A stretch of DNA of 36,746 nucleotides from a virus, in the IMG/VR virus record IMGVR_UViG_3300031576_000190, positions 1 through 36,746 of that record. The stretch is one strand, 5' to 3'. This document shows positions 1 to 21,569 of the stretch, piece after piece. A program made the position numbers and the translations under genes. Below the pieces are notes generated by a model. The model made no database searches, was not told the DNA's origin, and saw nothing but the letters and a program-made list of their open reading frames with translations. Position 1 is the stretch's first letter. Each line of letters begins with the position of its first letter.

Positions 1-451
1 CACAAATATTAATGAAGTGCATAGAGCCTTGAATTTGTAAAAGAGTTTTGTTGATTTCACCGCCCCAGATTACACCGCCCCTGATTTCACCGCCCCAGAT
101 TACACCGCCCCTGATTACACCGCCCCAGATTACACCGCCCCTGATTACACCGCCCCTGATTACACCGCCCCTGATTTCACCGCCCCAGATTACACCGCCC
201 CAGATTACACCGCCCCTGATTTCACCGCCCCAGATTTCACCGCCCCTGATTACACCGCCCCAGATTTCGGCTTCGGGAGAAATCCATCCCATATTTTCAA
301 AGAAAGAATCTTTAAGGGATTTTTCGTCTTCAACCCATCCGGCCTTATCGCCGACCTTACCCCATTTGCATTCAATAGCGATTTCTAATTGGAATAGGGT
401 TCTCCCGTATTTGACTTTGGAAACGGAAGTTAATTTAAGGTGCTTTGTCAT
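1..451 (-). CDS. Pentapeptide-repeat beta-helix protein, N-terminal part (gene continues across the circular join)
   Basis: The minus frame opens at the ATG at 451 and runs open to base 1. Joined to the matching frame at the right end (36600 down to 36419) it gives 633 nt, 210 residues. Residues 1-65 form a non-repeat head starting MTKHLKLTSVSKVKYG and containing a CKWGKVGDKAGWVE stretch. Then come 14 full repeats of GG[V/E]I[W/R] encoded by 15-bp units, each unit variable only at two A/T positions. Such heads followed by short glycine repeats are, from memory, found in Bacteroidetes phage proteins that probably fold as right-handed beta-helices; the function is unknown. Start choice is supported by the promoter and leader shared with the gene at 784. 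The long plus-strand frame over the same repeats is a shadow. Confidence 0.85.
   Translation of the reverse strand, partial: MTKHLKLTSVSKVKYGRTLFQLEIAIECKWGKVGDKAGWVEDEKSLKDSFFENMGWISPEAEIWGGVIRGGEIWGGEIRGGVIWGGVIWGGEIRGGVIRGGVIRGGVIWGGVIRGGVIWGGEIRGGVIWGGEINKTLLQIQGSMHFINIC
54..269 (-). repeat. 15-bp tandem repeat array coding for pentapeptides
   Basis: Fourteen full units plus a partial one. On the plus strand each unit is [A/T]GATT[A/T]CACCGCCCC. The first variable base selects Trp or Arg and the second selects Val or Glu in the encoded GG[V/E]I[W/R] pentapeptide. All other bases are invariant, including third codon positions, which indicates recent expansion or continuing homogenisation rather than old divergence. 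Confidence 0.97.
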
Positions 452-512
452 TTTGCTCGTTTTTAATCCCCGCTTTCGGCGGCTCGGTTGTGCTTCTGCA
501 CACCAAAATATA
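452..512 (-). promoter_or_regulatory. Promoter and two-hairpin leader of the pentapeptide gene (copy A)
   Basis: Reading on the minus strand: a -7-like box TATATTTTGG (512-503), then GTGC-AGAA-GCAC (hairpin), then CCGC-CGAAA-GCGG (hairpin), then TTAAAAACGAGCAAA directly before the ATG at 451. Seven-eighths of the layout and much of the sequence recurs before the ATG at 784. A TTG at 536-534 (minus) lies about 21 bases upstream of the box, a fair -33 element. There is no Shine-Dalgarno sequence. Confidence 0.7.
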
Positions 513-528
513 TATTCGCAACTTCCTG

Positions 529-552
529 ACGTACAATTCTACGTTTGTACGT
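529..552. promoter_or_regulatory. Palindromic operator candidate, perfect 8-bp arms
   Basis: ACGTACAA, an 8-base spacer, then TTGTACGT. It covers the probable -33 element of the promoter for the pentapeptide gene, a normal place for a repressor. No repressor gene is recognised in the window, so the binder is unknown. Confidence 0.45.
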
Positions 553-556
553 ACGA

Positions 557-784
557 TTAAAAAGAGATTTCATCTTCGCATTCAACAACCTCTAACCGGC
601 CATCCAAGCCAGCGTCATTTTCAACTAAAGAGACCATCTTGGATTCGGCATCTTCTTTGTTCTCGAATAATGTGTTCTCAGGATTAACAGGATTTGCCTC
701 GAATTTGCGGGAGTCGAAATTATAAATCAACTGTCCGTTGTAGCCATCCAGAATTATCTGGTAAGATCTTTCAACTGTTTTCAT
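557..784 (-). CDS. Hypothetical 75-residue acidic protein
   Basis: I choose the ATG at 784, giving a protein that begins MKTVERSYQIILDGYNGQ and ends in an acidic tail (VVECEDEISF). A longer frame from 898 exists but it would run through the -7 box at 837-844 and through the leader hairpins shared with the gene at 451, so it is not credible. The protein has no Cys motif, membrane segment or family I recognise. Its leader, about 60 bases with two hairpins, is a duplicate of the leader of the next gene downstream, so the two are probably expressed under the same conditions. It may be an accessory protein acting with the pentapeptide protein, but only the shared leader suggests this. Confidence 0.75.
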   Translation of the reverse strand: MKTVERSYQIILDGYNGQLIYNFDSRKFEANPVNPENTLFENKEDAESKMVSLVENDAGLDGRLEVVECEDEISF

Positions 785-836
785 TTTGCTCGTTTTTAAA
801 CTCGGCTTCCCGCCGTCGGGTCGTGCTTCTGCACAC
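785..836 (-). promoter_or_regulatory. Two-hairpin leader (copy B) of the 75-residue gene
   Basis: Minus strand order: GTGC-AGAA-GCAC hairpin, CCCG-ACGG-CGGG hairpin, then TTTAAAAACGAGCAAA before the ATG. The first hairpin and the last 18 bases before the ATG are nearly identical to copy A at 452-512; the second hairpin keeps its shape but not its sequence, as a selected RNA structure would. Confidence 0.7.
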
Positions 837-844
837 ACAAATAT
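837..844 (-). promoter_or_regulatory. -7 promoter box TATATTTG for the 75-residue gene
   Basis: Exact match to the Bacteroidetes TAnnTTTG consensus, 53 bases upstream of the ATG at 784. No clear TTG is found at the -33 position; that region is taken up by the inverted repeat at 851-872. Confidence 0.65.
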
Positions 845-850
845 ACGCAC

Positions 851-872
851 ATTTATCACATTTGTTATAAAT
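851..872. promoter_or_regulatory. Palindromic operator candidate at the -33 region
   Basis: ATTTATCACA, spacer TT, then TGTTATAAAT: ten-base arms with one mismatch. It sits directly upstream of the TATATTTG box, in the same place relative to the promoter as the palindrome at 529-552, although the sequence differs. Confidence 0.4.
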
Positions 873-898
873 AATATGTAATATAATACCATATTCAC

Positions 899-1049
899 AT
901 AACTGCCTGATACTGGGGCTAATAAAATGATGGGCTAAAAGGGGGCTATTTGGGCATCGAGGACAGATTTGGCCCCTTACCCCTGCCTCCGGGTGATCAG
1001 CAAATCTAAACGGTTTAGCTGTGGTTTGACGGGGCCTTATTTCGGGGTC
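899..1049. other. Non-coding stretch after the lysis cassette
   Basis: No plausible gene on either strand. It holds three direct GGGCTA words (916, 932 and 943 on the plus strand) and a perfect 13-bp palindrome CTAAACGGTTTAG at 1006-1018. No intrinsic terminator with a T-run on the minus strand is visible, although the late transcripts must pass or end here. Confidence 0.5.
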
Positions 1050-1346
1050 CTATGGGCAGCCGCATAGGCGCGCCCGCGTATGCTGGGCGATGTTCTTTAG
1101 CCGGATGTTTCCTTCCAGCCTGATTAGCGTGGTGTCCCGTTCAAAGTCGGTAATGGCGCGACGGTAGACCTGCACCTCCAGTTCGGCGCTGATCGTCTCA
1201 TAATGACTGTGATTGTATTTGTCCCGCCTTTCGATTGTGTGCATCTGTATCCCGTCAATAGTAATGGCCTGTATCCGCTCGCAATCCCGGGCGCTTGGTC
1301 CGCAGGCGGCGATCAGGAATAAAACAACGATTGTGATAGTTCTCAT
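1050..1346 (-). CDS. Small lipoprotein in the lysis cassette (possible spanin-like)
   Basis: The 98-residue product from the ATG at 1346 begins MRTITIVVLFLIAACGPSA, a textbook lipoprotein signal with lipobox IAAC, so Cys15 would be lipidated and the protein anchored in a membrane. The rest is hydrophilic and charged, ending RLCGCP. The ATG overlaps the stop of the holin gene as ATGA, which fixes the start; a longer frame from 1421 runs inside the holin gene. A lipoprotein directly after holin is where outer-membrane spanin subunits (Rz1 type) are found in phages of Gram-negative bacteria, but it is longer than most Rz1 proteins and not proline-rich, so the spanin role is inference. Confidence 0.8.
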   Translation of the reverse strand: MRTITIVVLFLIAACGPSARDCERIQAITIDGIQMHTIERRDKYNHSHYETISAELEVQVYRRAITDFERDTTLIRLEGNIRLKNIAQHTRARLCGCP

Positions 1347-1831
1347 TTCTTGGAGGCCTTCATCATCTTGCTGGCTTCGCGCCCTATGAAATAAAAGGAC
1401 AGCGTGGCCATCCATGCCCACTGGAACACTTCTTTCCAGTCCGCATCCACGTTGAACTGAAGCGAGGCCGAATCGATGATGGCGACGGTGGTGACCGCGA
1501 GAGTTAAAAAGATCAGCGTCAGGGGCCGGATGTTCTTACTGAGCCATGAGTCGCTCAGCATATCTGCCTGATGTCGTTTGGTTGCTTCCTCTGATGCCTT
1601 CAGTTCGAGGCGCTGTTGTTCCAGCTCGAAGTCATTCATCAGCTTTGTGAATTCCAGCTTGTCTTCCGGCCTGATGTCCGGATCTTTGTCGACGAGATTC
1701 TTGATGATTCCCAACACGCCTTTGTCAGGAAGAATTCCCGCGATCAGGTCCTTGACCTTTGGCAGCTTCTCATCGATGAAGGTTGCGAGCTTCGGATGCT
1801 TCTCCTTCCACGTTTTTTTTCCCTCGGCCAT
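1343..1831 (-). CDS. Holin, 3TM/GTA type
   Basis: 162 residues. A charged N-terminal half (residues 1-95, helical, rich in Lys and Glu) is followed by SKNIRPLTLIFLTLAVTTVA and a second hydrophobic stretch around WAWMATLSFYFIGREASKMM. This order, with the RP before the first hydrophobic segment and the GR..SKM ending, matches the holin family named for gene transfer agent release (PF11351). Such proteins form lesions in the inner membrane that let the endolysin out. Only two clear membrane segments are visible; a third weak one may lie around residues 28-40. It lies between the coiled-coil membrane protein and the lipoprotein and overlaps the latter by ATGA. Confidence 0.85.
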   Translation of the reverse strand: MAEGKKTWKEKHPKLATFIDEKLPKVKDLIAGILPDKGVLGIIKNLVDKDPDIRPEDKLEFTKLMNDFELEQQRLELKASEEATKRHQADMLSDSWLSKNIRPLTLIFLTLAVTTVAIIDSASLQFNVDADWKEVFQWAWMATLSFYFIGREASKMMKASKK

Positions 1832-2103
1832 TATTGAAGGTTTAAAAATTCATTGATCCGCTTGATCTTCCGGTAATCGTCATCCAGGTATTGCCGGTAG
1901 ACTTTATTCGTTGAGTCCTGTTGATGCTTCCAGCTCAATACGCGGAGGCTGTCGTTGTAACGGAGCTGCCTGATGGTCTGCTCCATATCGTCCATGCGCT
2001 CCGGCAGCTCCCAGATATCCTGTGCGTTATTCCAGAACCATCCCACCATTCCCATCACGATGGTCGTGCCGATGGCGATCAGGATCTTCTGCGCCTGCTT
2101 CAA
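1831..2103 (-). CDS. Small membrane-anchored coiled-coil protein of the lysis cassette
   Basis: About 90 residues: a short basic N-terminus (KQAQK), one membrane helix ([18 protein letters not shown]) and a long charged helix ([21 protein letters not shown] and on). One membrane anchor plus a coiled coil is typical of i-spanin or antiholin proteins. The start is uncertain. I take the TTG at 2103, since translation upstream of it in this frame (from an ATG at 2157) is a shadow of the endolysin; the next in-frame ATGs lie inside the membrane helix. Its 5' end overlaps the endolysin gene by about 77 bases. Stop abuts the holin start. With the lipoprotein at 1346 it could form a spanin pair, which is inference. 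Confidence 0.65.
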
Positions 2104-2599
2104 AATGCATCCAGTCGAAGTCCTTCTCGCGCCCGTAGCTGAGAAAGTCATGCGCATAGAAGATATCGATCATTTGTTTGTATTCCATCCGGGCGAAGCG
2201 CGCGGTCTTCGCTGTCTCGCGCAATTTGTTACGATCCGCATCCAGATCGATGGCAATTGCCCAGCTGTGCGTGGAAAGATAGGCAGTCGCTCCATCCGTG
2301 TCTCCGCGTTCAATGGCTGCGGCATACTGTGTTTCATATCCGCGCTTTGGACGGTGATTGAAGCATCCCGCGTATTGATCGATGCCTAAGTCACGGATTT
2401 TCTCCGGTCCGTAAGCAGAAAGAATGTCATGGAAAATATCGCCGAGCTGCGCAGCTACGAGTTTATGGCAGGTAAGTTTGGAGACGGATTTCGTGATGTC
2501 CCAATCCAATGCCATCGGGTAGGATAGCTGGATGGTGGTTAGGTTCTTTGCGTCGCCCGGCTGTCCGTATTTGGCGATGATCTGTTGTAGCGTCAGCAT
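2027..2599 (-). CDS. Endolysin, M15-family peptidase
   Basis: 190 residues. The zinc-binding layout of M15 D-Ala-D-Ala carboxypeptidase-type endolysins is visible: [12 protein letters not shown] gives His111 and Asp118, and DWMHFE near the end gives His165. FNHRPKRG before it is the usual upstream conserved block, here separated from the STHSW motif by an unusual insert of roughly 20 residues. The enzyme should cut peptide cross-links in host peptidoglycan. No signal peptide is seen, so it needs the holin. Residues 168-190 (rich in Asp, Arg, His) extend beyond the normal end of the fold and overlap the start of the next membrane gene. The ATG at 2599 overlaps the previous stop (TGATG). Confidence 0.88.
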
Positions 2600-2826
2600 C
2601 AGGCTTTTTTTGGTTTGAGAACGATATCCTCCATGCGCTCGATGCGCCGGTTGTGATCTTCGTGTTTTTCCGAATGCGTTGCGAGTTGCTGTTTGATCTC
2701 ACCGATGTCGCTGGCCATGCGCATCAGTGCGTTGACGGCGAGTGCGCCGATGAAGCCAAGTACGGCTAAAAGAACGGGTAGCGCCCATAGTAAAAGTTTA
2801 TAAATGGTCTGATCCATAGGACTCAT
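2599..2826 (-). CDS. Small membrane protein with coiled coil, upstream of endolysin
   Basis: 75 residues: a membrane helix at about 11-34 ([20 protein letters not shown]) followed by a charged amphipathic helix (residues 38-75) containing several His and Glu residues. This layout (N-terminal anchor, then a XhlA/holin-accessory type helix) is common in the lysis genes of many phages. A second Met four codons in (2817) is an equally possible start. It begins ten bases after the previous stop and its stop overlaps the endolysin ATG. Possible roles are holin partner or antiholin; the sequence alone does not decide. Confidence 0.75.
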
Positions 2827-2836
2827 CGTTTCAAAT

Positions 2837-3079
2837 TTACGGATTGTTATAATTCTGATTCACAAATGCGAGCGCATCTGCGGCAATGATCGCATCAATC
2901 GCCGCCTGGTCCGTCCCTGCTTTCATCCATTCGCAGCGGATAAAGCGCGGCTGAAGGAATCCTCTCGTGTCGCCCTGGATACCGACATTCACGGTAATGT
3001 CCTGCTGTATTTTTGTGGCATCCGTCGGCTTCACATAGGCCGGTCCTTCCTTGATGGTGCTGGTTACAATGTAGATCAT
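2837..3079 (-). CDS. Hypothetical 80-residue protein between receptor-binding protein and lysis genes
   Basis: Begins MIYIVTSTIKEGPAYVKPTD and ends with an Ala-rich helix and YNNP. No membrane segment, Cys motif or family recognised. It starts about ten bases after the stop of the receptor-binding protein gene and is followed closely by the lysis cassette, so it is co-transcribed with both. Small proteins in this place are often tail-fibre chaperones or capping proteins; I see no direct evidence for that here. Confidence 0.7.
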   Translation of the reverse strand: MIYIVTSTIKEGPAYVKPTDATKIQQDITVNVGIQGDTRGFLQPRFIRCEWMKAGTDQAAIDAIIAADALAFVNQNYNNP

Positions 3080-3089
3080 ACTGCTGGTT

Positions 3090-4169
3090 TTAAATTATGA
3101 AGGTCCATCCTGTACTCTTGTTTATATATAATCCCTCAGTCACATCCGTGCAATAAACGATCAGGCCGATGGCCGGTGCGGCAATCGCTACGCGCTGCGC
3201 GTTGGTCATGCGCGGCGGAAGCAGTCCGGTGGTCGTGCTGGTCAGATCAAGGATCGCGCTGGCATCCGGCGTGATGGTTCTTATTCCGATATTGCCTGTG
3301 GCTTCATCGATGTGAATGATGGTCGTGGTACTTGAATCTGAAGCGAGGATGCCCCTGACCTGGTAATGGTTCCCGGCGGCGCGCCCGTGCTTCCAGTATT
3401 TACTCCCGCCAATGTTGCCCATTTGGATGAAAGTGGAAGCGCCCGTGCTGAGCATCTCATATCCAGGATCGTCTAATGCGCCTGAATGCCGTATCTGATC
3501 GCCGTTGTGTCCGAAGGTGATATTTCCTCCCGCCCACATCGCTATGCCGAGTCCATTGGCGGATGATGCCTTTTGAATATGATTGGCTCCGAAGATCGCA
3601 CGCTGCGCTGTTCCATAGTCGGTATGTCCGAGAAATGTGATTATAGTTCCGTCATCTGTGAAGGTGGCATTGCCGAGCACGGTGGCTGCAAGCCACCTGG
3701 TTCCCCTGTTTGGCGTACCTGATCCTGTCGGGCCTCCTCCGCCTGCTGCGCTGATAGTGGTCGCCTGGAAGTTGATCCCGTCATAGATCAGCAGATGCGC
3801 GTGTCCTGCCACGATATCACCGGCCACAAGCGCAGCCGTTCCGCTTTTTTTGATGGCTTTGGCCCCGAAGCCGTTGAAGTTGATGGTAGAGGCTCCGATA
3901 TTGGTGGTGAGAAACAATACGCGTAGCGGCATGCCCTTGAAATATCCCAGGATCTGCGGCGCCGTGAATTCAGCGATGTATGTGTTGGCAACAGCTGCGG
4001 CAGCCTCGGTGAACTGATTGAGCAGATCGTAATATGCGAGATCGTTCCACGGCAGCTCTCCATTGCCGATCTTCACCAGCGCGGTATCGGTCTCGATACC
4101 GATGCGTCCTGCCTCCAGCACGATATTCTGGGCGGCCCAGTAGGCTGCCGGATGTTTCAGCGGTATCAT
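3090..4169 (-). CDS. Receptor-binding / tail fibre protein with Mtd-like N-terminus
   Basis: 359 residues. Residues 1-47 (AAQNIVLEAGRIGIETDT, then KIGNGELPWNDLAYYD) match the short N-terminal domain found on the major tropism determinant of Bordetella phage BPP-1 and on many tail fibres. The middle is rich in Gly, Thr, Ser and aromatic residues as in beta-structured fibres. The C-terminus holds NIGIRTITPDASAILDLTS followed by a GLLPPRMTNAQR block and a YCTD..GLY segment, a fibre ending common in Bacteroidetes phages and prophages. It should bind the cell surface at the tail tip. No reverse transcriptase or variable repeat pair is near, so diversity generation as in BPP-1 is not supported. The ATG overlaps the previous stop by ATGA. 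Confidence 0.85.
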   Translation of the reverse strand: MIPLKHPAAYWAAQNIVLEAGRIGIETDTALVKIGNGELPWNDLAYYDLLNQFTEAAAAVANTYIAEFTAPQILGYFKGMPLRVLFLTTNIGASTINFNGFGAKAIKKSGTAALVAGDIVAGHAHLLIYDGINFQATTISAAGGGGPTGSGTPNRGTRWLAATVLGNATFTDDGTIITFLGHTDYGTAQRAIFGANHIQKASSANGLGIAMWAGGNITFGHNGDQIRHSGALDDPGYEMLSTGASTFIQMGNIGGSKYWKHGRAAGNHYQVRGILASDSSTTTIIHIDEATGNIGIRTITPDASAILDLTSTTTGLLPPRMTNAQRVAIAAPAIGLIVYCTDVTEGLYINKSTGWTFII

Positions 4170-5278
4170 CCCCTGGCGCTCTGGCTTTCGCAGCAGTTGC
4201 TCTTGATCACGCTCTGGACGGCCTCCTTGAAGTTGACCTCTACGCGTGCCAGCCTGCGCCAGTTTTTGTCCTTGTAGTCCGGCTCATATCCGCCATCTTT
4301 GATCACGGACTTCTGAATGATGGCATAGTCGGAGTTATTGATATTGTAATCGCTCACCAGCAGCTTGTTCGCCATAAGCGCATATGTCTTAAACCGGTCA
4401 TGCAGCCATTTGGGAAGCAGGTGCGTGATCAGCTTAAACTTCTGAATAGCCTCATCGCGCACGCGATTCATCTTCCCGTTCTGGAATTCGTGCAGCACCT
4501 CCAGGTATTCCGGCGTGGTCTCATATCCGAAGAAGCCGCGGAAGCGGATGGAGTCGTACCAGGCAATATCGCAGAGGTCGAATATTTTACCGTCCGCATT
4601 TATGTCCCCGATCTTTCCGCTGATAGTGGATTCAAATTTCACGGTCTGATGCGCCAGCTTGCAATCGAATGCGTAAAGGCGGAACAGTTCAGATACCTGG
4701 CAGCTCTGCAGGACCGGCGGCAGCTCCACGCCCACGTCATCCTGGGACAGCTCGCTGATTATCTTGAACCGGTAGCATCCTGTTCCGTGCAGGTTCAAAA
4801 CCTTTCCCCAGTTGATCGCATACCCGGTGTAGCTCTTATGGCTGGAAAATCCGTTCAGCGGATAATGTCTTCCGTATGTACTCCCCGTCAATGTGGCGAG
4901 ATCTGTCCAGACCGATGCGATGAGTTTCTGCAGGATCATGGTGACGCTGACAAGCGGATTCACTGTGGCCAGCGGAAAGTTGATCAAAAAAGTATTGAAG
5001 TCCTGCTCATAGGTCGGCGCGTTGGGACCGCCTACCACTCCGAAGACAATATTCTCATAACAGCAGGCCTGTTGCCTTATCTCGCGGCATTCCACTGCCG
5101 AGCAATTCGTAAGCGGCGCCATGCCGACGATCTGTCCGGGAAGCAGTTTTGATTTTGGCGTTCCATGCCCCGGCGTGATCACGCTGAGGCCTCCGCCCAA
5201 GGATGGTCCTATGCCGGGATTAACAGCTCCGCCGGTGACGGGCTTTGGATTGGGCGAATATGATATTCCGATCGGCAT
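4166..5278 (-). CDS. Structural protein of unknown role, tail tip region
   Basis: 370 residues. The first 45 residues are rich in Gly and Pro (TGGAVNPGIGPSLGGGLSVI), then follow several Cys residues (NCSAVECREIRQQACCYE) and a globular region with FRLYAFDCKLAHQTV and NADGKIFDLCDIAWYD. The C-terminal half is helical and charged. Seven or more Cys residues is high for a phage structural protein; a disulfide or metal role is possible. I do not recognise a family. Its place between the baseplate-like proteins and the fibre protein, with four-base overlap to the latter, argues for a distal tail or fibre-connecting protein. Confidence 0.78.
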   Translation of the reverse strand: MPIGISYSPNPKPVTGGAVNPGIGPSLGGGLSVITPGHGTPKSKLLPGQIVGMAPLTNCSAVECREIRQQACCYENIVFGVVGGPNAPTYEQDFNTFLINFPLATVNPLVSVTMILQKLIASVWTDLATLTGSTYGRHYPLNGFSSHKSYTGYAINWGKVLNLHGTGCYRFKIISELSQDDVGVELPPVLQSCQVSELFRLYAFDCKLAHQTVKFESTISGKIGDINADGKIFDLCDIAWYDSIRFRGFFGYETTPEYLEVLHEFQNGKMNRVRDEAIQKFKLITHLLPKWLHDRFKTYALMANKLLVSDYNINNSDYAIIQKSVIKDGGYEPDYKDKNWRRLARVEVNFKEAVQSVIKSNCCESQSARG

Positions 5279-5279
5279 C

Positions 5280-5825
5280 TTAAAGCGGCAGCGTGTCTGT
5301 CTTCACCCATACGTCCAACGCTCCGGCGGTCAGATCGTTGATGACGTGCGCGCCATCTACGGTAAGCCTCAGATAGAACTTACTGGCTGCCGCCTGGCTC
5401 GGAATATCCGAGAAGGACGGCGTAGCATATCCGGTGAATTGCTTGCCAAAATCGGCGGCAGGAGCGCCGAAGACGCTTAAGGGGCCGGTGTAAAACGATC
5501 CGGGACCGGTATCATCGGAATAAACTTCCACATCTGCAGAGGTTATGCCGCCTCCGCCGAAGGCGATGCTGTGCTTGATCTTCACACCGGTTATCAGTCC
5601 TCCCTGTGGAATGATATTCGCGCCTACCTCTATTTGGCTGCTGATTCCTGCGGCAGGCTGGAAGCTGGCGAAGGTGAAGCTGTATTTGATCCAGCCGTTG
5701 GCGAATTTCTTCACATTGGAGGCTTTCACCTTCTTGTTGCCCGGCGCGGCGCTATCGGCAATGACGAATAAATCGTCGGCTACAATGGTTGTCTTCTCTG
5801 TCAGGGCTGTGATCTTCTGGCTCAT
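5280..5825 (-). CDS. Probable tail fibre or tip-attached beta-rich protein
   Basis: 181 residues from the ATG at 5825, beginning MSQKITALTEKTTIVADDLF. The opening [KI]..LTE.T...DDLFVI.D pattern is typical of short N-terminal segments of phage tail-fibre and tip proteins. The rest is Gly- and Ser-rich with predicted beta strands (FGGGGITSADVEVYSDDTGPG). A start at 5873 is possible but would overlap the previous gene by 35 bases and add a basic tail that is a shadow of that gene. Spacing from the previous stop with the chosen start is 13 bases. Probably part of the host-recognition tip. Confidence 0.75.
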   Translation of the reverse strand: MSQKITALTEKTTIVADDLFVIADSAAPGNKKVKASNVKKFANGWIKYSFTFASFQPAAGISSQIEVGANIIPQGGLITGVKIKHSIAFGGGGITSADVEVYSDDTGPGSFYTGPLSVFGAPAADFGKQFTGYATPSFSDIPSQAAASKFYLRLTVDGAHVINDLTAGALDVWVKTDTLPL

Positions 5826-5838
5826 GTGATTGGTTGTT

Positions 5839-8361
5839 TTACGCGCATACTTCCATTTTCGTTCCCTCGCCATCTTCCAGCAGGAGTGGCGTACCGTCCT
5901 CCAGCAGGATCAGGCAGTCGGAATATAAGAATCCGATGCGCGGGTAGATTAATATTGTTCCTGAATCGCGGCCCTTGAACTTGCTGATATCGAATAGTCC
6001 CTCGGCCACGATCCTATTCGAATCGTATCTGTTGAAGCGCAGGTTGCCCAGCGCCCTTGTCTCAGTGGCTGTCGGGTCTCCGGCAGGTGCGCTCCAGGGG
6101 CTGTCCGTCTCTGATGGGATTTCCGTTGATGCGAACTGCCGGCTGAATATTCCACTGCTCCCTTCCACGTCGGCAAATATCCAGACGTACAGATCATTGG
6201 CGATCTCGCCTCCGAAAGTCGGCATGGTGGAAAAATCGCCCTCGAAGGTCGCACGCACCAGTGTGATGCCATCCTCGACGATTGTCCTGAGCTGGGCCGA
6301 TCCATCCTCGGTATAAAATTGCAGTTTCATGTCGAAGACCGGTCCGGTCTGAGGATCTTCATCGCCGGTCAGCGAGCGGGTATCCGTCTCGATATTGAAT
6401 TCGGTGTCATGTCCGTCGTATCCGGTGATCAGGAAGGTCCAGCGCATCTTGAGATTCCATCCTCCCTGATTATTATAATCGCTCCATCGGTTCGCGACAT
6501 TCTCTATGTCGCCGAAGATATCCACTGATGCGCCCTCGGCCTGCGGCAGCGCGGCCTGCCAGTATTCATACCGGAGCGCCAGCCCGTACTGCAGCTCATA
6601 GGCCGCCTTCGTTCCTGTGTCATTTGCCGGTACGCGGAACAGGTTCACGCGGTTACGCGGATCGTCGGCATAGGTGGTGAAACCCCGCTTCTCCAGTATC
6701 TGTATGGTTTGCGCGTTGTCCAATTTGCGGTCCTGCCCGGTATTCATGATCTTCTGCTCCAGTACGAAGTCGGTCTTCGTGGCATGCGTAGCGATCACCT
6801 GGAGGGTTATCGTCTTGAGTGTTGGTGTCACACCGGCAGCGTCGGGGCTGGTCTTCAGTCGAAACTTCAGGCGCGTATATACCGGATCGCCTTCATATCC
6901 TGCGAGGTCCGTTGCGTTGTGCTCTACCTCATTTGGGAATTCGTATGTCTTTGGCGTTTCAATCAGTTCAAAAAGGGCATTATTGTCCTGGTCGTATCCG
7001 GGCAGTGGCGCCTCCACCAGCAGCGCGATCTTCTGCGCATCGGCGGTGACGGCAATACCTATGGGATCCTTGATGGCGATCCAGTAGGCATCCCGGCGGT
7101 TATCCTCTGTCTTTGCCTTCAGATAGTCCTTTAAGAAGGTGCTGAAATCCAGCGAGAACTTGATGGTCGCCGTGCCTGCGGCGAAGGTGGTCAGGTTGAT
7201 TGATTTGAGCTGTTGATAATTCGTCGCCTCAAACTCCCCACCCGTAGCGCTATCGCTGAGAGTGAGCAGGCTGCGGTCGAAGAACAGGTTCTTGCGCAGC
7301 GGCGTAATGGTATTGATGAAATCCGCCCGGTCCATCGGCAGCTGCAACGCTCCGATGACGATTTGCGTATTTGTTGTGAACAGGTTGCTGCGGCTCTTGA
7401 TCACGACCGTGACATTGGTCTTGCGATTGAGATCCGGCACCGTAACAGGAAATCCCGTGATGTCATCCGTGTAGACGATGGAATCGATATAATATTCCGG
7501 GCGGCTGCCGACGGCATTCTGATTGAACCATGCTACCATTCCATCCCTGTTGAAGATGGATCCGGTGTGCGGTATCTCAGGATCTGTAGATGCGAACTTC
7601 GCATCCATGCGCGCGATATGCTTTACACTTCGGCGATCCTCGAAGAGCGCAGGGATGGTCCGGCCGGCAAAGTTATTGACCTGCTCTGTGAGCCAGACGG
7701 GTGTGATGAAGAAGGTCTGGCTGATGATGAATTTCTGGCGATGATCCGCCGTGATGCCCTGTCCCTTGATCGTTACCTGGGCCGTCTCGCCGGTGGTCTC
7801 ATCCACGAAGGTATGCGTCACCCATGCGAAGCTGTCCGATCCGATGAACATATTCTTTACCGTTATAATATCACCGGCATTAATTCCATTGACAGTATAT
7901 CGCTGCAGCGCACCCGGATCCTGCAGGCTGAGATAATCTTCCCGGGAAGTATTGGGAATGATATTGTAATAAAAATCCAGCGCCGTAACGGGTGTCGTTC
8001 CGAACAGACCGGCATCCTCTGCTGATTCATTCGCCAGTCCTGCTGTCACGGTGATGACGCGCTCCTCTACGGTGAGGATGGTAAAGGTTGCGTTATTGAA
8101 TGTCGTTCCCTCCACGACCAGCGTATCGCCTGTCCGGAAGCCGGTATCGATGAAGGACGAAGGATCAAGATCATTGGCATTGGTGATGGTGTCATCAGCT
8201 GCCAGGAAGTCCAGCTTCTTGTTCTCTGCGCTCCACTTGACATAAAATTCAATGTCGCAGCGCATCTTGTCGCCCACCGATCCCTGAAGGTAATCCGTGC
8301 CTCCTCCGCCTATGCCGAGATATTCGCAATAGAACTTCCGGCTTGTGATGATGACGGCCAT
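5839..8361 (-). CDS. Large tail / baseplate protein, 840 residues
   Basis: One of the largest proteins of the phage. It opens MAVIITSRKFYCEYLGIGGGGTDYLQG and is composed of beta-rich segments with many Thr and Asp residues; no enzymatic motif, coiled coil or membrane segment is evident. The final residues (LILLEDGTPLLLEDGEGTKME) hold a small internal repeat LLEDG. It follows the membrane-segment tail protein and the 92-residue protein and precedes fibre genes, so it most likely builds the tail tip hub or the central fibre. I do not recognise the family beyond general likeness to tail proteins of Bacteroidetes phages. It starts immediately after the previous stop. Confidence 0.8.
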   Translation of the reverse strand: MAVIITSRKFYCEYLGIGGGGTDYLQGSVGDKMRCDIEFYVKWSAENKKLDFLAADDTITNANDLDPSSFIDTGFRTGDTLVVEGTTFNNATFTILTVEERVITVTAGLANESAEDAGLFGTTPVTALDFYYNIIPNTSREDYLSLQDPGALQRYTVNGINAGDIITVKNMFIGSDSFAWVTHTFVDETTGETAQVTIKGQGITADHRQKFIISQTFFITPVWLTEQVNNFAGRTIPALFEDRRSVKHIARMDAKFASTDPEIPHTGSIFNRDGMVAWFNQNAVGSRPEYYIDSIVYTDDITGFPVTVPDLNRKTNVTVVIKSRSNLFTTNTQIVIGALQLPMDRADFINTITPLRKNLFFDRSLLTLSDSATGGEFEATNYQQLKSINLTTFAAGTATIKFSLDFSTFLKDYLKAKTEDNRRDAYWIAIKDPIGIAVTADAQKIALLVEAPLPGYDQDNNALFELIETPKTYEFPNEVEHNATDLAGYEGDPVYTRLKFRLKTSPDAAGVTPTLKTITLQVIATHATKTDFVLEQKIMNTGQDRKLDNAQTIQILEKRGFTTYADDPRNRVNLFRVPANDTGTKAAYELQYGLALRYEYWQAALPQAEGASVDIFGDIENVANRWSDYNNQGGWNLKMRWTFLITGYDGHDTEFNIETDTRSLTGDEDPQTGPVFDMKLQFYTEDGSAQLRTIVEDGITLVRATFEGDFSTMPTFGGEIANDLYVWIFADVEGSSGIFSRQFASTEIPSETDSPWSAPAGDPTATETRALGNLRFNRYDSNRIVAEGLFDISKFKGRDSGTILIYPRIGFLYSDCLILLEDGTPLLLEDGEGTKMEVCA

Positions 8362-8640
8362 CTATTTCAATGATTTGAAGAAGGCCTCGCCTTCCGCTAT
8401 ACTTTTAAATTCCAGGATCACCATGCCCTTCTCCGTAATCGATGCTGTGAGAGGCACATCCATGTGATTGCGGCCGAAGCTCATGCTGGTGCGTCTCACT
8501 TCCACAGGTTTAAAATTGGGTATGCGTCCCATGAGATCCGTTGCCTGTTCCATCATCGGACGCATCATCTTCAGTTTGCTTTCCAGCATCTTCGTGATGC
8601 CATCCAGACCGTCCGGTCCCTGCTTTGTTTTATCCGCCAT
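8362..8640 (-). CDS. Hypothetical 92-residue protein between two large tail genes
   Basis: Starts MADKTKQGPDGLDGITKMLE at the ATG at 8640. The first half is an amphipathic helix rich in Met (MLESKLKMMRPMMEQATDLM); the second half looks like a small beta domain (MDVPLTASITEKGMVILEF). A longer frame from 8766 runs deep inside the previous gene and is a shadow. The gene overlaps the preceding stop by eleven bases, implying translational coupling. No family recognised; a tail assembly or tip adaptor role is suggested only by position. Confidence 0.75.
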   Translation of the reverse strand: MADKTKQGPDGLDGITKMLESKLKMMRPMMEQATDLMGRIPNFKPVEVRRTSMSFGRNHMDVPLTASITEKGMVILEFKSIAEGEAFFKSLK

Positions 8641-10549
8641 CGATTGTGATTTTTTCAGTGAGGTTGTTTGTAAAATTACTATAAATCCTATATTCCACAT
8701 TGAGTGCCTGATCATTGTGCAGGTCCCAGAGCATGCGTATGAATTTTCCGTTACGCCCCAGCGCATCCTTCAGGATATTATTGTTCAGCACCTTTAGATA
8801 TTCCGCGCAGCAGAATGGCAGGCGCTTCTCGCGAAAGGTCAGCTGTTGATTGCCCCGCGTGGCCAGCTCCCTGCCATGAAAATTCGTGAGCAGGGTATTG
8901 GCTGCCAGCCGTGTTTCGCTCTGCGCATGCAGCTCCCAGTCGTTGCCGACCGGCGTTCCGATCATGATCTTCGGTACGGAGAAGGTATCATTGCTCAGCA
9001 GCAGCCATCCTATGCGTCCGACAAAGACATTGGTTGGTAGCGGCGGGATAGTGTCCAGCGTTGCAGGATTTCCTCCGAAGAACTGGATTGCTGCGTTGAT
9101 TGCGTTGATCAGGGTGTTGATGGTGTTGATGATGAAATTCACAAAATTGGCCAGTGCGTTGAGTACATCGTTCAGCAGGTTCTCCACCCGCGTGAGATAT
9201 TCCTTGCGCTTGGCCAGCGCAAAGTTCAGGCGCACCTCATGATTCTTTGCCAGCAGCAAATACTTCTTGTTATTCACGATGTTCGGCTGCATGGTTACCT
9301 GTACGGATGTGCCTCTGTACCGGTGTATGGTGTTCAGCTCGGATGGATCGATCTGCCAGATCAGGAAGAAGTTGCTGGGCAGTTCCGAGGCATTGGTTCC
9401 TTGCGGATCCGGATAATTGAAAGTAAAGCCGGGAGCGCCGGAGTTGGGCAGCTGGAAGGGGTTCGCATTTTGCCAGAAATTCTTTTCTTCAAAATGAAGC
9501 ACGCCGCCAATGATCTTCACCTCTGCGTGGAAGAGATCCATCATGTCCTGGATGAACTCCTTGAAGGTACCGGCGCCGCTATTGTAATAGCCGTATGCTC
9601 CGTTGTTAGGAAATCCTGCGCCCTCATCGAAGGGGCGATCGAAGACGTTGAGCGGATTGTTGACCGATGGGATGATATCCTTGCGCGGGATGATCGTTGC
9701 GTCCTTGTAGTTGCCAGCCTGCAGGATCGTACTGGAAAATCCGAGGCCGAGATATTGACAGGCGCGCCGGAACAGCGTCTCGATGCGCATGCCGAGCTTG
9801 TGCTTCTTGAGCTGGACGATATTGCTGATCAGAGCCTTGATCAGATCGATCAAAATAATAATTATCAAAAAGAGATATACGACGTAAAGCACGACGATGA
9901 CAATAGTGGCTATCAGCGTACCGGCTGCCAGGCCGAGCGTTGCGACGGCTGTCGTGCTGTCTCCGCTGAGCTGGGCGATGAGCTGGCTGATCTTCGTAGT
10001 GACGTCGAACAGCTCCTTCAGCGTCACGAAGAGGCTGATGCTGATGATCATCGCCTGCGTATAGTCCGGTATCGCGCTGATCGCATAAGGGATGCGCTTG
10101 TAATCGTTTGCCGGGATGATGCGCCCCGGTGTCGTCCCCGTGAGGCTGGCCAGGTAAGCGAAGCTGAAACTGCCGGCCACATCATTGAGCCAGTCTATTC
10201 TGCCCGCCTCTTTGATCGGCGAGCGTACCATATCGCATTCGAACATCGTGCGGTCGCTGGCAAGATCCAGCATCCCATCGAAGATGACCGTGTTGAGGGT
10301 CCCGCAGGCGGTGATCTTCAGGGGTAGCCCTTCATAAATTCCGGGTCCGCCTCCGGTGAGTCCTGCCATACGGTAGGCATTGATCTTCACGGCCTCATCT
10401 GCTACCCATTCGAATTCGGTGCTTTGCAGGGATGCGCTGGGATGATCATTAGTAAAGATTAGCTCCACCTGCATGGATTTCCAGTTGATCGGCGGATTGA
10501 CGGCTGTGAAGCCGGTGCCATAGTTCAGCTCAAATCTCAGGTCGACCAT
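8630..10549 (-). CDS. Tail protein with a long central membrane-like segment, 639 residues
   Basis: Residues 1-200 are soluble, beta-rich (opening MVDLRFELNYGTGFTAVNPP with INWKS..VELIF). Residues about 205-245 are intensely hydrophobic (GTLIATIVIVVLYVVYLFLI and on), enough for one or two membrane helices. Another hydrophobic helix follows near residues 450-480 (FVNFIINTINTLINAINAAI). The C-terminal part is soluble again. It starts directly after the tape measure gene (TAATG overlap), the position of distal tail or tail-hub proteins. A buried or ejected membrane-active segment could help open the host inner membrane during DNA entry; that is inference. Confidence 0.8.
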   Translation of the reverse strand: MVDLRFELNYGTGFTAVNPPINWKSMQVELIFTNDHPSASLQSTEFEWVADEAVKINAYRMAGLTGGGPGIYEGLPLKITACGTLNTVIFDGMLDLASDRTMFECDMVRSPIKEAGRIDWLNDVAGSFSFAYLASLTGTTPGRIIPANDYKRIPYAISAIPDYTQAMIISISLFVTLKELFDVTTKISQLIAQLSGDSTTAVATLGLAAGTLIATIVIVVLYVVYLFLIIIILIDLIKALISNIVQLKKHKLGMRIETLFRRACQYLGLGFSSTILQAGNYKDATIIPRKDIIPSVNNPLNVFDRPFDEGAGFPNNGAYGYYNSGAGTFKEFIQDMMDLFHAEVKIIGGVLHFEEKNFWQNANPFQLPNSGAPGFTFNYPDPQGTNASELPSNFFLIWQIDPSELNTIHRYRGTSVQVTMQPNIVNNKKYLLLAKNHEVRLNFALAKRKEYLTRVENLLNDVLNALANFVNFIINTINTLINAINAAIQFFGGNPATLDTIPPLPTNVFVGRIGWLLLSNDTFSVPKIMIGTPVGNDWELHAQSETRLAANTLLTNFHGRELATRGNQQLTFREKRLPFCCAEYLKVLNNNILKDALGRNGKFIRMLWDLHNDQALNVEYRIYSNFTNNLTEKITIDGG

Positions 10550-13269
10550 TAAAATGCCCTCCTTTTGCCGGTAATATGACGGCGCAGACCTGCCTCCACT
10601 TCCTGCCGCACCATGTTTCCGTGCTCATCCCAATTGATCGATATCTCTTTTTTGTGCTTAACCGTTTTCTCCAGGCTGCGCAGGCGGTCATCCAGCAATC
10701 CGAGCATGGCGCCTGCCAGTTGTGATCTTTTACTGGCATCCGCCATGAGCTGGGTATTGAGCTGCGGCATATAGGTATCCTTGAAGTATTCCATGACCCC
10801 TCCCTCGTTCATTGCGGTGGCCAGTCCGGGATTTTCTCTGGTCCCGGCTGCCGTGACTACTGATTCGCCTTTGGAGAGCAGGGCGAGGTTGCTATCGCTT
10901 GTAGCGGTGCCTCTGCCGGGCAGATCCTCCACTCCTTCGGCGAATGTACCGGCGATCAGCTCGCTGATGCCTTTGGCGATGAGCGTCTGAGCGAGGGCTT
11001 TGGCAGGCGCTCCGATGGCTCCTTCCTTCGCATAGGACTTAAGAAATTCCAGGAAGACATTGGCCAGCTGCTGTGCCTGTTCCTGTCTGCGTGCTCGTTT
11101 CTCCAGCTCCGCCTTTTTAGCTATGGCTTCCGCCCGGCGTTTCTCCTCGAAGGCCAGCGTGTTGTCCAGTCCCCTGTTGGCCAGATCCTGCTGCTTTTTT
11201 ATCGCATCATCGATCTGCTTGAGTTCCTTATCCAGCATCTGCTGTCGGCGCTGATCGCGCTTCTCCAGCCCGTCGAAGACGGCATCGTTGAGGCTGTCCA
11301 CCAGCTTGATTTCTTCATCCAGCCGCTTTTTGTTCAGGCCCTTGATCTGCTCCTGATAATTCTGCTCCAGCTTAATACTCGCCGCCCGATACTCCTCTTC
11401 AGTGATAATGCCCTTTTTGCGCGCCTCGACGAGAAGGTGTCCCTCCCGGCTATACTGCGCTTTGATCTCCTCCAACCTCAATTCGTCTTCCGTCTTCCCG
11501 ATATCTGCATTCTCAGCCTCAATTTTCATCAGGTTTCCCAGCAGTTTCTCTCTTTCCTCTATCTCTTTGCCGATCTTCTCGACGCGGAGCTTCTCTTCTT
11601 CGGCGTATCGCTTCTCCATGGCCTTCAGCCGCGCCTTGCTCATATCGTCCATAGCTTTGCGTTCCATCTCATCGAGCTTACGCAGGTGCTCCCATTCCTC
11701 CATCTCCAGCTTGCGTTTCTTCTCAGCCAGATCTTCATTGATCTCCTGCAGGTCCGTTGTCAGCTTATTGTTGATGGCTAAAATGAAATTGTACTTAGTA
11801 TTCTCGCTCAGTTTCGTTTTTTCGACATCTTCTATATCGAATCGTGCCTGCAACTTCAGATTTTCTATCTTTCTCTTTGTGTCATCCTTTATAGCATCAA
11901 CACGAAGTTTTTCAATCTCCCTCCATTTTTCTCTCTCAAGCTCTTCTATTTCCTGTTTGTCCTTCTTATCATCAATAAGAGTCTTCAGTTTCAGTTCCTT
12001 CAGCTTACTGAAGGTAAGAGCTGCTTCGTCTTTAATAATCTGTTGTTGTTCCTCGAATACTTTTCCGGATAGTCCGATAACAGTAACAAGGGCATTCCAA
12101 AAAGTTTTAGTTTCTTCAAGTTTTGTTTTCGTATCTTCTTTAAATCCCTGAAGTAATTGAGAATATTCTATGCCTAATAAAGCTGATGCTGCCTGTGTAT
12201 CATTCAAAGTTCCTGTGAGTTTTTTGTATTCAACATTCAATTTTTGAATAGAGAATACGCTTTCATTGTATTGTTTACGAAGTTCATCATTCTTGATGAT
12301 AGTTCCGTCGATAGCCTTCTGACGCTCTTTCTCTTCCTTAGTATTGTCAATGATCGCATTAATGATTCCTATTGTCGCGGTTGCGAGTACTGCAAGCCCG
12401 GCAACAATTAATCCTATTGTTCCTACTCCGGCAGCGCGTACGGCGTTAAGTATTCTCTGAGCGATTGTAAGTTTTGTAGTTGCTCCCGTTTCTGCCGTCT
12501 TTGCCACTGCCCCTTTTAAGACTGCGGCTGTTTCCATTACAGTTTCTTCAGATACCGCCCTTTTTACAAGTTTGAATCCTTGAAGTATTTTAACAGAATT
12601 TTTGTAAGCCTGTTCAATAGAATGAATCGCATCTTCATTTATTCCGAAAAGTTTTGCTGTATTGATCAAAATTCCGCCGAGTCCTTTCATGGCTCCGGTA
12701 TAATTTCCCACATTGCGCTGATGCTGGCCTACGGTGGCATCCAATGTCTTGAGTTTGGTATCCTGTTCCTGCACGGCCTGCAGCAATCCACGTCCTACCA
12801 CGCCCTGCTCCCGGCCTGCGATGGTCAGGTTCTTGTAGGCGTTACGCAGATCGTTCAGCTCCTTGCTCGCCTTCTGATAGGCGCTCACCAGTCCGAGCTG
12901 CTCCCGGGCCAGATCCTTATTTGCTTTGGTCTGTTCCTTGATTTGTTCCTTCAGTTTGGCCTGCCCGATGGCCTCCTCCGATGTCAGGGCAGCGAGCTGC
13001 TTCTCCAGCGCGAGACGTTTGCGCTGCGTCTCGGTCATCCCTTTGACTGTATCGTCTGTCTTCTTGAATGCGTCATTGAGCTTTTCTACATCATCGACAT
13101 TCTTTGGATCGACGATGGTGATCTTCTTTCCTGTGGCAATAAGGATGCCTTTGAAGCCTGCCTCCAGGTCCTTGAGCACCTGCAGAAGCTCCTTGCCTTC
13201 CGCGATGGTCGGCTGGAAGACCTGATCCTCTATAATATCGCTATGCTTTACTTTGTCGCTTTCGGCCAT
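10549..13269 (-). CDS. Tape measure protein
   Basis: 906 residues, the longest gene, directly upstream of the large tail genes. Long coiled-coil regions rich in Lys, Glu and Ala cover about residues 50-190 and 310-760, a hydrophobic segment lies at 279-306 (GTIGLIVAGLAVLATATIGI), and the end is a soluble domain after AEGVEDLPGRGTATSDS and GGVMEYF, the usual Bacteroidetes tape-measure tail. It sets tail length inside the tube and is ejected with DNA. At about 0.15 nm per residue it predicts a tail of roughly 136 nm, fitting a siphovirus. Residues about 196-503 are encoded by clearly AT-richer DNA than the ends, a sign of mosaic exchange. Confidence 0.93.
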   Translation of the reverse strand: MAESDKVKHSDIIEDQVFQPTIAEGKELLQVLKDLEAGFKGILIATGKKITIVDPKNVDDVEKLNDAFKKTDDTVKGMTETQRKRLALEKQLAALTSEEAIGQAKLKEQIKEQTKANKDLAREQLGLVSAYQKASKELNDLRNAYKNLTIAGREQGVVGRGLLQAVQEQDTKLKTLDATVGQHQRNVGNYTGAMKGLGGILINTAKLFGINEDAIHSIEQAYKNSVKILQGFKLVKRAVSEETVMETAAVLKGAVAKTAETGATTKLTIAQRILNAVRAAGVGTIGLIVAGLAVLATATIGIINAIIDNTKEEKERQKAIDGTIIKNDELRKQYNESVFSIQKLNVEYKKLTGTLNDTQAASALLGIEYSQLLQGFKEDTKTKLEETKTFWNALVTVIGLSGKVFEEQQQIIKDEAALTFSKLKELKLKTLIDDKKDKQEIEELEREKWREIEKLRVDAIKDDTKRKIENLKLQARFDIEDVEKTKLSENTKYNFILAINNKLTTDLQEINEDLAEKKRKLEMEEWEHLRKLDEMERKAMDDMSKARLKAMEKRYAEEEKLRVEKIGKEIEEREKLLGNLMKIEAENADIGKTEDELRLEEIKAQYSREGHLLVEARKKGIITEEEYRAASIKLEQNYQEQIKGLNKKRLDEEIKLVDSLNDAVFDGLEKRDQRRQQMLDKELKQIDDAIKKQQDLANRGLDNTLAFEEKRRAEAIAKKAELEKRARRQEQAQQLANVFLEFLKSYAKEGAIGAPAKALAQTLIAKGISELIAGTFAEGVEDLPGRGTATSDSNLALLSKGESVVTAAGTRENPGLATAMNEGGVMEYFKDTYMPQLNTQLMADASKRSQLAGAMLGLLDDRLRSLEKTVKHKKEISINWDEHGNMVRQEVEAGLRRHITGKRRAF

Positions 13270-13777
13270 GTTTGTCGATCAATTTGAAATATGAATAAAA
13301 CTCTGCCACGCTGGTGCGTCTGGGATCGATGGCGAAGCCGAGCTGCTGCTCCAGCGATCCCTTCATCTCATAAAACCCGGCCTCCGAAGTTTGCCTGCTC
13401 ATCGCCTTCAGCTCCTGTTCTGCGATGTTGATCAGCGTCCGGATGCTTTTGTCGCCACTCACCATCCGATCTATCTTCAGCAGCGCGATCTGCTTGCGCT
13501 TGTTGATCTGATCCAGGAAGGCCTCGCTGAAACCGAAGCGCGTGATGAATTGATCGTATATCGCTTTGAAAACTGCGCCCAACCTTATGAGCTGGTATCG
13601 GTTCACCGGGCATCGGCCAACAAGGAGCCATCCGTAGCCCTCTCCTTCGTGTATCCTCCACCAGTTGAAGACCGGCAGGTCATCGATGGTCCGGTAGTAA
13701 TCAGGTAAGGATCGCGCGGCGAACAAGCGGAAGAAGGCGCTCGATAATCTCCGGGCGAAGTTCTGCAATCGAATCAT
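13241..13777 (-). CDS. Tail assembly chaperone candidate
   Basis: 178 residues placed between the probable major tail and completion genes and the tape measure gene, where tail assembly chaperones sit in siphophages. The core PDYYRTIDDLPVFNWWRIHE with later EQELKAMSRQTSEAGFYEMK is a block I associate with this position in Bacteroidetes phages, but I cannot name a family. The first 24 codons overlap the previous gene and look like a shadow; a TTG at 13726 would start closer to the conserved core. No slippery heptamer and second frame, as in lambda G/GT, are evident. The stop overlaps the tape measure start by 29 bases. Confidence 0.72.
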   Translation of the reverse strand: MIRLQNFARRLSSAFFRLFAARSLPDYYRTIDDLPVFNWWRIHEGEGYGWLLVGRCPVNRYQLIRLGAVFKAIYDQFITRFGFSEAFLDQINKRKQIALLKIDRMVSGDKSIRTLINIAEQELKAMSRQTSEAGFYEMKGSLEQQLGFAIDPRRTSVAEFYSYFKLIDKHGRKRQSKA

Positions 13778-14168
13778 TTGTCAGTCCGAGTATTTTGTCT
13801 CCATAAACGAATTCCAGGTCATCCGTGCCGTCCTTCAGTGTGTCTGCGCTGATGATAAAGCCATTAGCCTGATTCTTTACTTTAAAGCTCCGGTAAAAGT
13901 CGCCGGTATCCTTCAGCGTAACGTGATCTGTGCGGGTGTCGCGTCCTATGTGCGCAGCCATGGTTGTCTTGTATCTGATGGTGCTGGGCGCGTAGGATCC
14001 CAATCTTATACCGTCCGCTCCGACTCCCTTATTGTACAGTTGATTCTGCGTGTTGAGTTTAATGATTTGCGTCTGGATGGTTTCCTCATCGAGGATCCGG
14101 CGCGCCAGAGGCTTTACTTTCAAATTGACGGCATTCAGCGCCACGTATCTGAGTCGTCCGAGTCCCAT
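13701..14168 (-). CDS. Tail completion / neck protein candidate
   Basis: 155 residues. N-terminal basic helix, then NKGVGADGIRLGSYAPSTIR and GRDTRTDHVTLKDTGDFYRS. The 'speak of structure, a substrate-free DG....YAP.T...K' and 'LKDTGDF..SF' pattern recalls the HK97 gp10-like and related tail-completion proteins, in which similar 'L.DTG.L..S' motifs are common. The start lies just after an intrinsic terminator and a TACCTTTG promoter box (14173-14180), only five bases from the ATG, so the transcript may be nearly leaderless. This gene begins the transcript for the tape measure and everything downstream. Confidence 0.7.
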   Translation of the reverse strand: MGLGRLRYVALNAVNLKVKPLARRILDEETIQTQIIKLNTQNQLYNKGVGADGIRLGSYAPSTIRYKTTMAAHIGRDTRTDHVTLKDTGDFYRSFKVKNQANGFIISADTLKDGTDDLEFVYGDKILGLTNDSIAELRPEIIERLLPLVRRAILT

Positions 14169-14172
14169 CTTT

Positions 14173-14180
14173 CAAAGGTA
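14173..14180 (-). promoter_or_regulatory. -7 promoter box TACCTTTG restarting transcription after the tail-protein terminator
   Basis: Exact TAnnTTTG match between the terminator at 14182-14212 and the ATG at 14168. A start site about six bases downstream would fall at the ATG itself, implying a leaderless message. Confidence 0.65.
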
Positions 14181-14181
14181 T

Positions 14182-14212
14182 AAAAAACCCCGCAGAGGAC
14201 GATTCTGCGGGG
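14182..14212 (-). terminator. Intrinsic terminator after the probable major tail gene
   Basis: Perfect 8-bp stem CCCCGCAG/CTGCGGGG with a 9-base loop, followed on the minus strand by TTTTTT. Textbook intrinsic terminator. Confidence 0.92.
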
Positions 14213-14254
14213 CCGGCTTAATGACAGGCACACCCAGCACCTGCAGAAGAAACC

Positions 14255-15169: not shown

Positions 15170-15194
15170 CGGTTGAGTTTTTTAGTTGGTTCGA

Positions 15195-15202
15195 CAAATA
15201 TA
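15195..15202 (-). promoter_or_regulatory. -7 promoter box TATATTTG of the probable major tail gene
   Basis: Exact consensus match 26 bases upstream of the ATG at 15169, just past the stop of the preceding gene at 15211. No good TTG at the -33 position. Confidence 0.7.
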
Positions 15203-15210
15203 CAAAGTTC

Positions 15211-15924: not shown

Positions 15925-16292
15925 GATTTCTTGAACCTGATCCAGACGATCGCCTTCCTGCCGTTTACATCTACGGCATTGTAAGTGACCTTGATTTTCA
16001 GGCCTCTCAACAATTCAGCCGCATCGTCTTTGCTTTCAACCATGATTTCTAACTGCGTTATATTAGAAGTCAGGTATGCCGTCTCAGCATACTGATAGAC
16101 TTCAGCATCAGGCTGTCCCGGGACAGGCACCATGATTTTCATGTCCAGCTTGTCTCCGAAGATCGGATTTTCAGGCATTATGATCATGCCATGCATTTCA
16201 TAGTCTGCAGGCAGTTGATATTCAGTATCCGTTGTGCTTTGGCCGGCCGGCATCTCTATCTTGATGCCCTTTAGGAAGATTTTTTTGCTCAT
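15921..16292 (-). CDS. Hypothetical 123-residue head-tail region protein
   Basis: Begins MSKKIFLKGIKIEMPAGQST and contains a probable beta domain (GDKLDMKIMVPVPGQPDAEV) and ends in a basic tail (VWIRFKKS). The DNA is visibly AT-richer than its neighbours, as is the gene at 16303-17010, so both may have been exchanged together. It follows that gene by about ten bases. A head-decoration, connector or stopper role is possible from position alone. Confidence 0.72.
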   Translation of the reverse strand: MSKKIFLKGIKIEMPAGQSTTDTEYQLPADYEMHGMIIMPENPIFGDKLDMKIMVPVPGQPDAEVYQYAETAYLTSNITQLEIMVESKDDAAELLRGLKIKVTYNAVDVNGRKAIVWIRFKKS

Positions 16293-16302
16293 TGTTTTGT
16301 TT

Positions 16303-17010: not shown

Positions 17011-17022
17011 GATATCTGAAGT

Positions 17023-17535: not shown

Positions 17536-17540
17536 GTGTA

Positions 17541-17548
17541 CAAATGTA
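17541..17548 (-). promoter_or_regulatory. -7 promoter box TACATTTG restarting transcription after the capsid terminator
   Basis: Exact TAnnTTTG match directly after the terminator T-run and six bases before the ATG at 17535. Confidence 0.65.
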
Positions 17549-17550
17549 TT

Positions 17551-17589: not shown

Positions 17590-17623
17590 GTCTCCGTGCT
17601 GACTCTACTCAGCTCGGATTAGA

Positions 17624-21568: not shown

Positions 21569-21569
21569 T

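Follow-up and report, generated by a model that had tools for sequence, protein, structure and literature searches.

Both ends of a viral contig carry halves of a single gene for a probable capped beta-solenoid phage protein

The viral record IMGVR_UViG_3300031576_000190, analyzed here over its whole length of 36,746 nucleotides (the window), carries the same 15-nt tandem repeat at both of its ends. This raises the questions of whether the two ends belong to one gene and, if so, what kind of protein that gene encodes and why a contig should stop there. Comparison of the ends answers the first question. Positions 36601–36746 match positions 1–146 at 144 of 146 bases, with mismatches at 127 and 142, and the same pair of ends was recovered by a second comparison. 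Since the overlap begins with 59 bases of unique, nonrepeat sequence, the match is more than the array aligning with itself, and the overlap closes the genome at about 36.6 kb. The preliminary description of this DNA had proposed that a minus-strand frame starting at 451 runs off position 1 and continues from 36600 to 36419. Joined in this way, the frame spans 633 nt and encodes 210 residues plus a stop, and it is open across the junction with either copy of the overlap. Two units stand in opposite order in the two copies, R,W as against W,R, a disagreement that had previously escaped notice. A single additional 15-nt IRGGV unit in the right copy would account for both mismatches, and we take the cause to be either molecules that differ in length by one unit or an assembly error, rather than two point changes; the array thus comprises 14 or 15 units. 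The IMG/VR record appears to be classed as lacking end repeats, which fits the failure of an exact-match test given two mismatches in the overlap.

The consequence for gene calling is milder than had been supposed. A list of frames with open ends contains both pieces, at 2–451 (150 aa, 3' open) and 36419–36745 (108 aa, 5' open), so that a gene caller allowing partial genes would report two fragments. The earlier warning that the gene would be missed was therefore overstated, as the gene is fragmented rather than lost, although the competing plus-strand frame mentioned with it does exist: 170 aa long and located at 48–560, it overlaps the antisense of the array and is probably spurious.

The array itself occupies positions 56–265 on the minus strand and consists of 14 units of 15 nt, each encoding I[W/R]GG[V/E]. 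All 14 units read ATC[T/A]GGGGCGGTG[T/A]A, with 13 of the 15 columns invariant and both variable A/T positions nonsynonymous, as originally described. Trp and Arg occur seven times each, Val nine times, and Glu five times; the two positions vary independently, and all four combinations are present. Tandem Repeats Finder scored the repeat at 344 over 53–266, far above chance, and a second, partial copy lies at 36656–36746, also on the minus strand, with two units in the other order than in the left copy. The idea of a string of two-bit letters holds insofar as two A/T choices are present in each unit, but a binary alphabet is a property of the family described below and is not peculiar to this gene. 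An exact DNA search with the repeat returned no match in viral contigs, and no close relative of the phage was found when 1–20000 and 20001–36746 were compared by megablast with phage records, which yielded at most one 49-base match; for this genome, the overlap mismatch is thus the one sign of array turnover.

The two domains flanking the array connect the gene to other phages. The N-terminal head domain (residues 1–62; 266–451, minus strand) is a homologue of the YdcK-like N-cap found in phage xYGNAx repeat proteins and represented by phrog_5070 (E 0.0044). The C-terminal tail domain begins at 1–55 on the minus strand, where its translation crosses the join to continue at 36600, and a contiguous copy with its stop (LQIQGS...IQIGC...W...IKEY) lies on the same strand at 36419–36655; it matches phrog_32789 (E 3.9e-5) and a protein of Vibrio phage 1.081.O (E 8e-9). 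Direct searches with the genome's own head or tail did not find viral relatives, and profiles were needed: a head profile of two sequences (this genome and EBPR siphovirus 5 gp26) reached 32 viral loci, and a tail profile of four (this genome, Vibrio phage 1.081.O, and two fecal phage contigs) reached 16. Both domains therefore match phage proteins. Two of these loci, L023 and L056, have a single open reading frame that encodes homologous head and tail domains together with a GG[VE]I[SWR] array. The left fragment is 52% identical to L023 over 148 residues of head and array, and the right fragment is 53% identical to L023 and, over 98 residues, 54% identical to L056, values that take in the array and so overstate the identity of the caps. 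Because the fragments at opposite contig ends correspond to the two parts of a protein of known type, the join is independently supported at the level of sequence homology. Together with the overlap and the frame open through the join, this confirms that one gene is split by the contig ends.

Structure prediction is consistent with a beta-solenoid, although the models are weak. The AF2 model of the 2–451 fragment places a strand every five residues at a mean pLDDT of only 57, and the two models overall reached mean values of 57 and 60. Foldseek searches with both gave no match below E 0.01, the best (E 0.078) being to a protein other than a pentapeptide protein. Examination of unit order at lags of three or four revealed no strong periodicity that would mark stacked faces (for hexapeptide arrays, Stouffer z 1.8 at lag 3 and 2.6 at lag 4). 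The beta-helix that had been suggested from the repeat is thus best described as a probable beta-solenoid.

What family, then, does this protein belong to? Most relatives that share its head or tail carry 6-residue units of the form V[YSF]G[ND]A[WRQEK], and these hexapeptide members match known YdcK models: L007 matches the YdcK solenoid of Pfam (PF18836) at E 5e-35, and hexapeptide relatives match PDB 2F9C at E 2e-16. The head of L056 matches NF040481 (YdcK_fam) at E 7.5e-9 and 34.9 bits, far below the 350-bit equivalog cut-off of that model, to which the protein studied here, head included, gave no match. Neither did it directly match any Pfam, NCBIfam, or PDB sequence entry, and the hexapeptide repeat of PF18836 was not matched by its 5-residue array, so it is a variant rather than a typical family member. 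It nevertheless shares a homologous N-cap with the family and a C-cap with hexapeptide-array relatives. Having been introduced as a pentapeptide-repeat gene, it matched no Pfam pentapeptide model at E ≤1, and its caps belong to the YdcK-like phage family; it is not a standard pentapeptide-repeat protein. The best reading of these sequence comparisons is that the gene encodes a 5-residue variant of a widespread, largely unnamed family of YdcK-like capped phage solenoids with hypervariable arrays. The parts of these proteins are modular: a YdcK-like or other head is joined to an array of 6- or 5-residue units and to one of several tails. At about 420–470 of L023, both unit types stand next to each other (ISGNAEISGDAVIWGGEISGG), the 6-residue ISGNAE beside the 5-residue ISGGE, which suggests a route by which 5-residue units could take the place of 6-residue ones in an array and makes this mixed protein a possible intermediate between the two solenoid types. 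Family members in Streptococcus phages Javan249, Javan68, Javan174, and Javan318 are annotated as glycerol kinase, apparently in error.

We favor, at a probability of roughly 60%, the explanation that the gene encodes an accessory, probably intracellular, early-region phage protein of three parts (a YdcK-like N-cap, a beta-solenoid of near-identical units, and a C-cap) that gains diversity on its exposed face as its units recombine. In closely related phages, turnover of the array is seen directly, with caps and flanks unchanged. Among the Streptococcus thermophilus phages Sfi19, SFi18, and CHPC919, 10 to 14 of 324 array bases differ, compared with 0 to 3 of 966 bases outside; gene length is equal, and the array codon changes comprise 7 to 11 nonsynonymous and 0 to 1 synonymous changes, mostly to letters already present. 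Vibrio phages 1.034.O and 1.034.X are identical at all 4,288 positions flanking the array but differ within it by 15 mismatches and a 15-nt gap, and 1.139.A and 1.139.B have no mismatches outside and a length change of about 200 nt inside. Unit order and number differ among Edwardsiella phages KF-1, IW-1, ZHX, and ETP-1, and all 3 differences between L017 and L018 in 3,373 positions fall within the array. Some of the array differences in short-read records may be assembly errors. The GenBank records of Vibrio phages 1.034.O, 1.034.X, 1.139.A, 1.139.B, and 1.209.O (L073–L077) label the arrays CRISPR spacers, even though each sits within a protein-coding solenoid gene; the reading frame is interrupted inside the array of 1.139.B and of 1.209.O. 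Edwardsiella phages IW-1, ZHX, and ETP-1 (L058–L060, at about 2760–3340) carry a second, truncated head copy just upstream, and KF-1 resembles a deletion fusion of both head copies.

Neutral turnover of a tandem repeat, in which the array serves as a spacer or scaffold in the structure and the shuffling of units has no function, is a possible alternative, if hardly a probable one. Gain, loss, and exchange of units are expected in any low-diversity tandem repeat, and the broken frames of the two Vibrio phages may mean that loss is tolerated, unless they are assembly errors. However, neutral turnover should homogenize letters and silent sites alike, and this was not what we observed. Minor codon variants in 39 arrays, counted when present in at least two units of an array, comprised 148 nonsynonymous and 20 synonymous variants, where 25% would be expected to be synonymous (p 2e-5, a value that is only a guide because unit histories within an array are not independent), and 24 of the 39 arrays were without any synonymous variant. 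The variants sit at fixed positions (after V, after G, and after A), and much the same alphabets (Y/S/F, N/D, and W/R/Q/E/K) recur across phages that differ in their codons for Gly, Ala, and Val, which again argues against neutrality. The retention of mixed letters alongside homogenized silent sites instead suggests selection for a changing exposed surface.

A distinctly unlikely alternative is that the array differences, the mismatch between the contig ends included, arose during assembly because the repeat exceeds the read length. Contigs do break at these arrays: 8 of the 32 contigs with a head domain end within 300 nt downstream of it, compared with 0.55 expected, and the ends of the present contig lie inside its array. 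Public contigs that end in this way are L027, L030, L034, L039, L044, L047, L048, L050, and L003, the last of which (EBPR siphovirus 5) ends 8 bases past its match. Artefact, however, accounts poorly for Sfi19 and SFi18, which are equal in gene length and whose 10 array differences mostly recombine existing letters; both are AF-series GenBank records, which date from the Sanger era. Furthermore, misassembly leaves the nonsynonymous bias within single arrays unexplained. Reshuffling of arrays between near-identical phages would itself explain why assemblies tend to break there, and given the excess of contig ends, arrays of this kind are probably where many published phage contigs break off. 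The practical implication is that a gene with a repetitive array leads assemblers to break a phage genome inside a coding region, while differing copies at the two ends hide its circularity.

The genomic position of the gene bears on where its product acts. A lysis module lies upstream at 1343–2599 on the minus strand (endolysin at 2027–2599 and holin at 1343–1831; phrog_17001, E 2e-39, and phrog_3427, E 2e-18), and the first recognizable gene downstream, leading into the replication module, encodes a single-strand-binding-like protein (34796–35401, minus strand; phrog_8542, E 2e-16, and phrog_1607 SSB, E 3e-5). A search with the 454-aa protein at 33366–34730 found no kin. Elsewhere in the genome are two ParB-like proteins (24641–25354 and 25854–27581) and an 11-bp tandem repeat, TTGCTTCGCGT, at 30087–30151 within a putative replication initiation gene (29757–30506). 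The Sfi19 gene, orf229, is similarly placed between lysin and helicase, and in phiRM10, Mannheimia 587AP2, and MissD the solenoid gene lies near Gam/Rad52, RecT/exonuclease, or ERF genes. The records do not support a general association with single-strand annealing proteins, as ERF occurred in 3 and RecT in 3 of 43 related records (6 of 43 together). The gene is evidently accessory, as several records match both sides of the Sfi19 region with the gene missing, and of the 158 phage records that hold parts of this region, only 5 (3 phages, counting duplicates) cover most of it.

These positions also bear on the possibility that the protein is a virion adhesin or part of a tail fiber. Solenoids are common in fibers, and some hexapeptide relatives match fiber and baseplate profiles in their repeats, yet the gene's neighbors are early and recombination genes, or lysis genes on one side and replication genes on the other, and it lies outside the tail module, which makes a fiber role very unlikely. 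A DNA-mimicking gyrase inhibitor of the MfpA/Qnr type would have the same five-residue period, MfpA and Qnr were among very weak structural matches, and L015 weakly matched Qnr models (E 0.005). Such mimics are acidic, whereas this array is not (7 Arg and 5 Glu by direct count), no pentapeptide Pfam model matched, and mimicry would leave the letter diversity unexplained; we regard it as highly improbable. The chance that the array acts as a noncoding guide read at the nucleic acid level, like the vrRNAs of VIPR (PMC13142463), is next to negligible despite that precedent for hypervariable positions in a fixed phage motif and the CRISPR annotation in Vibrio records, because the units recur every 15 or 18 nt, not every 5 nt as in YNNGG, caps and array are homologous as protein, the frame is open in most members (two Vibrio records have it broken), residues persist while silent codons differ between phages, and no Vipr gene was recognized in the course of the general searches.

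Diversification of a capped solenoid through its units remains our preferred explanation, and general solenoid geometry suggests how it might work. Ile and the preceding Gly, along with Val and Ala in the 6-residue version, would point inward and be held fixed by packing, while the variable residues, V/E and W/R in this array, would lie on the outer face. Variation would arise mainly by recombination, slippage, or conversion between nearly identical units, a process that is safe for both frame and fold since each unit comprises complete codons and closely matches the next. Less certainly, selection for new surface patterns may maintain letter diversity while silent sites homogenize, and the product may be a dispensable intracellular protein of the early region that binds a putative variable component of the host or of a rival. 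An intracellular binding role of this kind is favored by the early-region position, the accessory status, and the location outside the tail module, and an outer surface that appears to change quickly under selection would suit proteins engaged in a conflict with factors of the host or of a rival. A bolder and, in our estimate, unlikely version is that the solenoid forms a combinatorial recognition surface, in which a two-letter choice per unit makes up a string that recombination rewrites within a lineage and that sets which repetitive or fast-evolving host partner is bound, so that the gene would generate intracellular diversity without a reverse transcriptase. If so, homologous caps would be able to carry two types of solenoid, with 6- and 5-residue units. 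The S. thermophilus phages offer a laboratory system for finding the binding partner. A search of the open-access literature found no description of such behavior by a hypervariable capped-solenoid array, although this does not prove its absence.

Comparison with known systems places the protein more precisely. VIPR vrRNA arrays (PMC13142463) are likewise phage-borne repeats, in which hypervariable dinucleotides lie between fixed motifs, but they are noncoding 5-nt repeats read by base pairing, whereas the solenoid family has coding units of 15 or 18 nt. The pentapeptide-repeat proteins MfpA and Qnr share a strict 5-residue period and an aliphatic center; they differ in having A(D/N)LXX where this array has Gly-Gly, and the present protein, which is not acidic and falls outside the Pfam models, has folded caps at both ends and near-identical DNA units. 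Also comparable are orf229 of phage Sfi19 and its homologues in SFi18 and CHPC919, which have a YdcK-like N-cap, a low-diversity in-frame array with letter choices, and, in Sfi19, a position between lysis and replication genes, although their units are hexapeptides (18 nt) and their C-terminal part is other or strongly diverged. The YdcK family itself (PF18836 B_solenoid_ydck, NF040481, and PDB 2F9C/2PIG) shares a homologous N-cap through the relatives and its repeat with the hexapeptide members. In contrast to that bacterial chromosomal protein, the one described here is a phage protein with a 5-residue period and a C-cap that lies outside the YdcK match.
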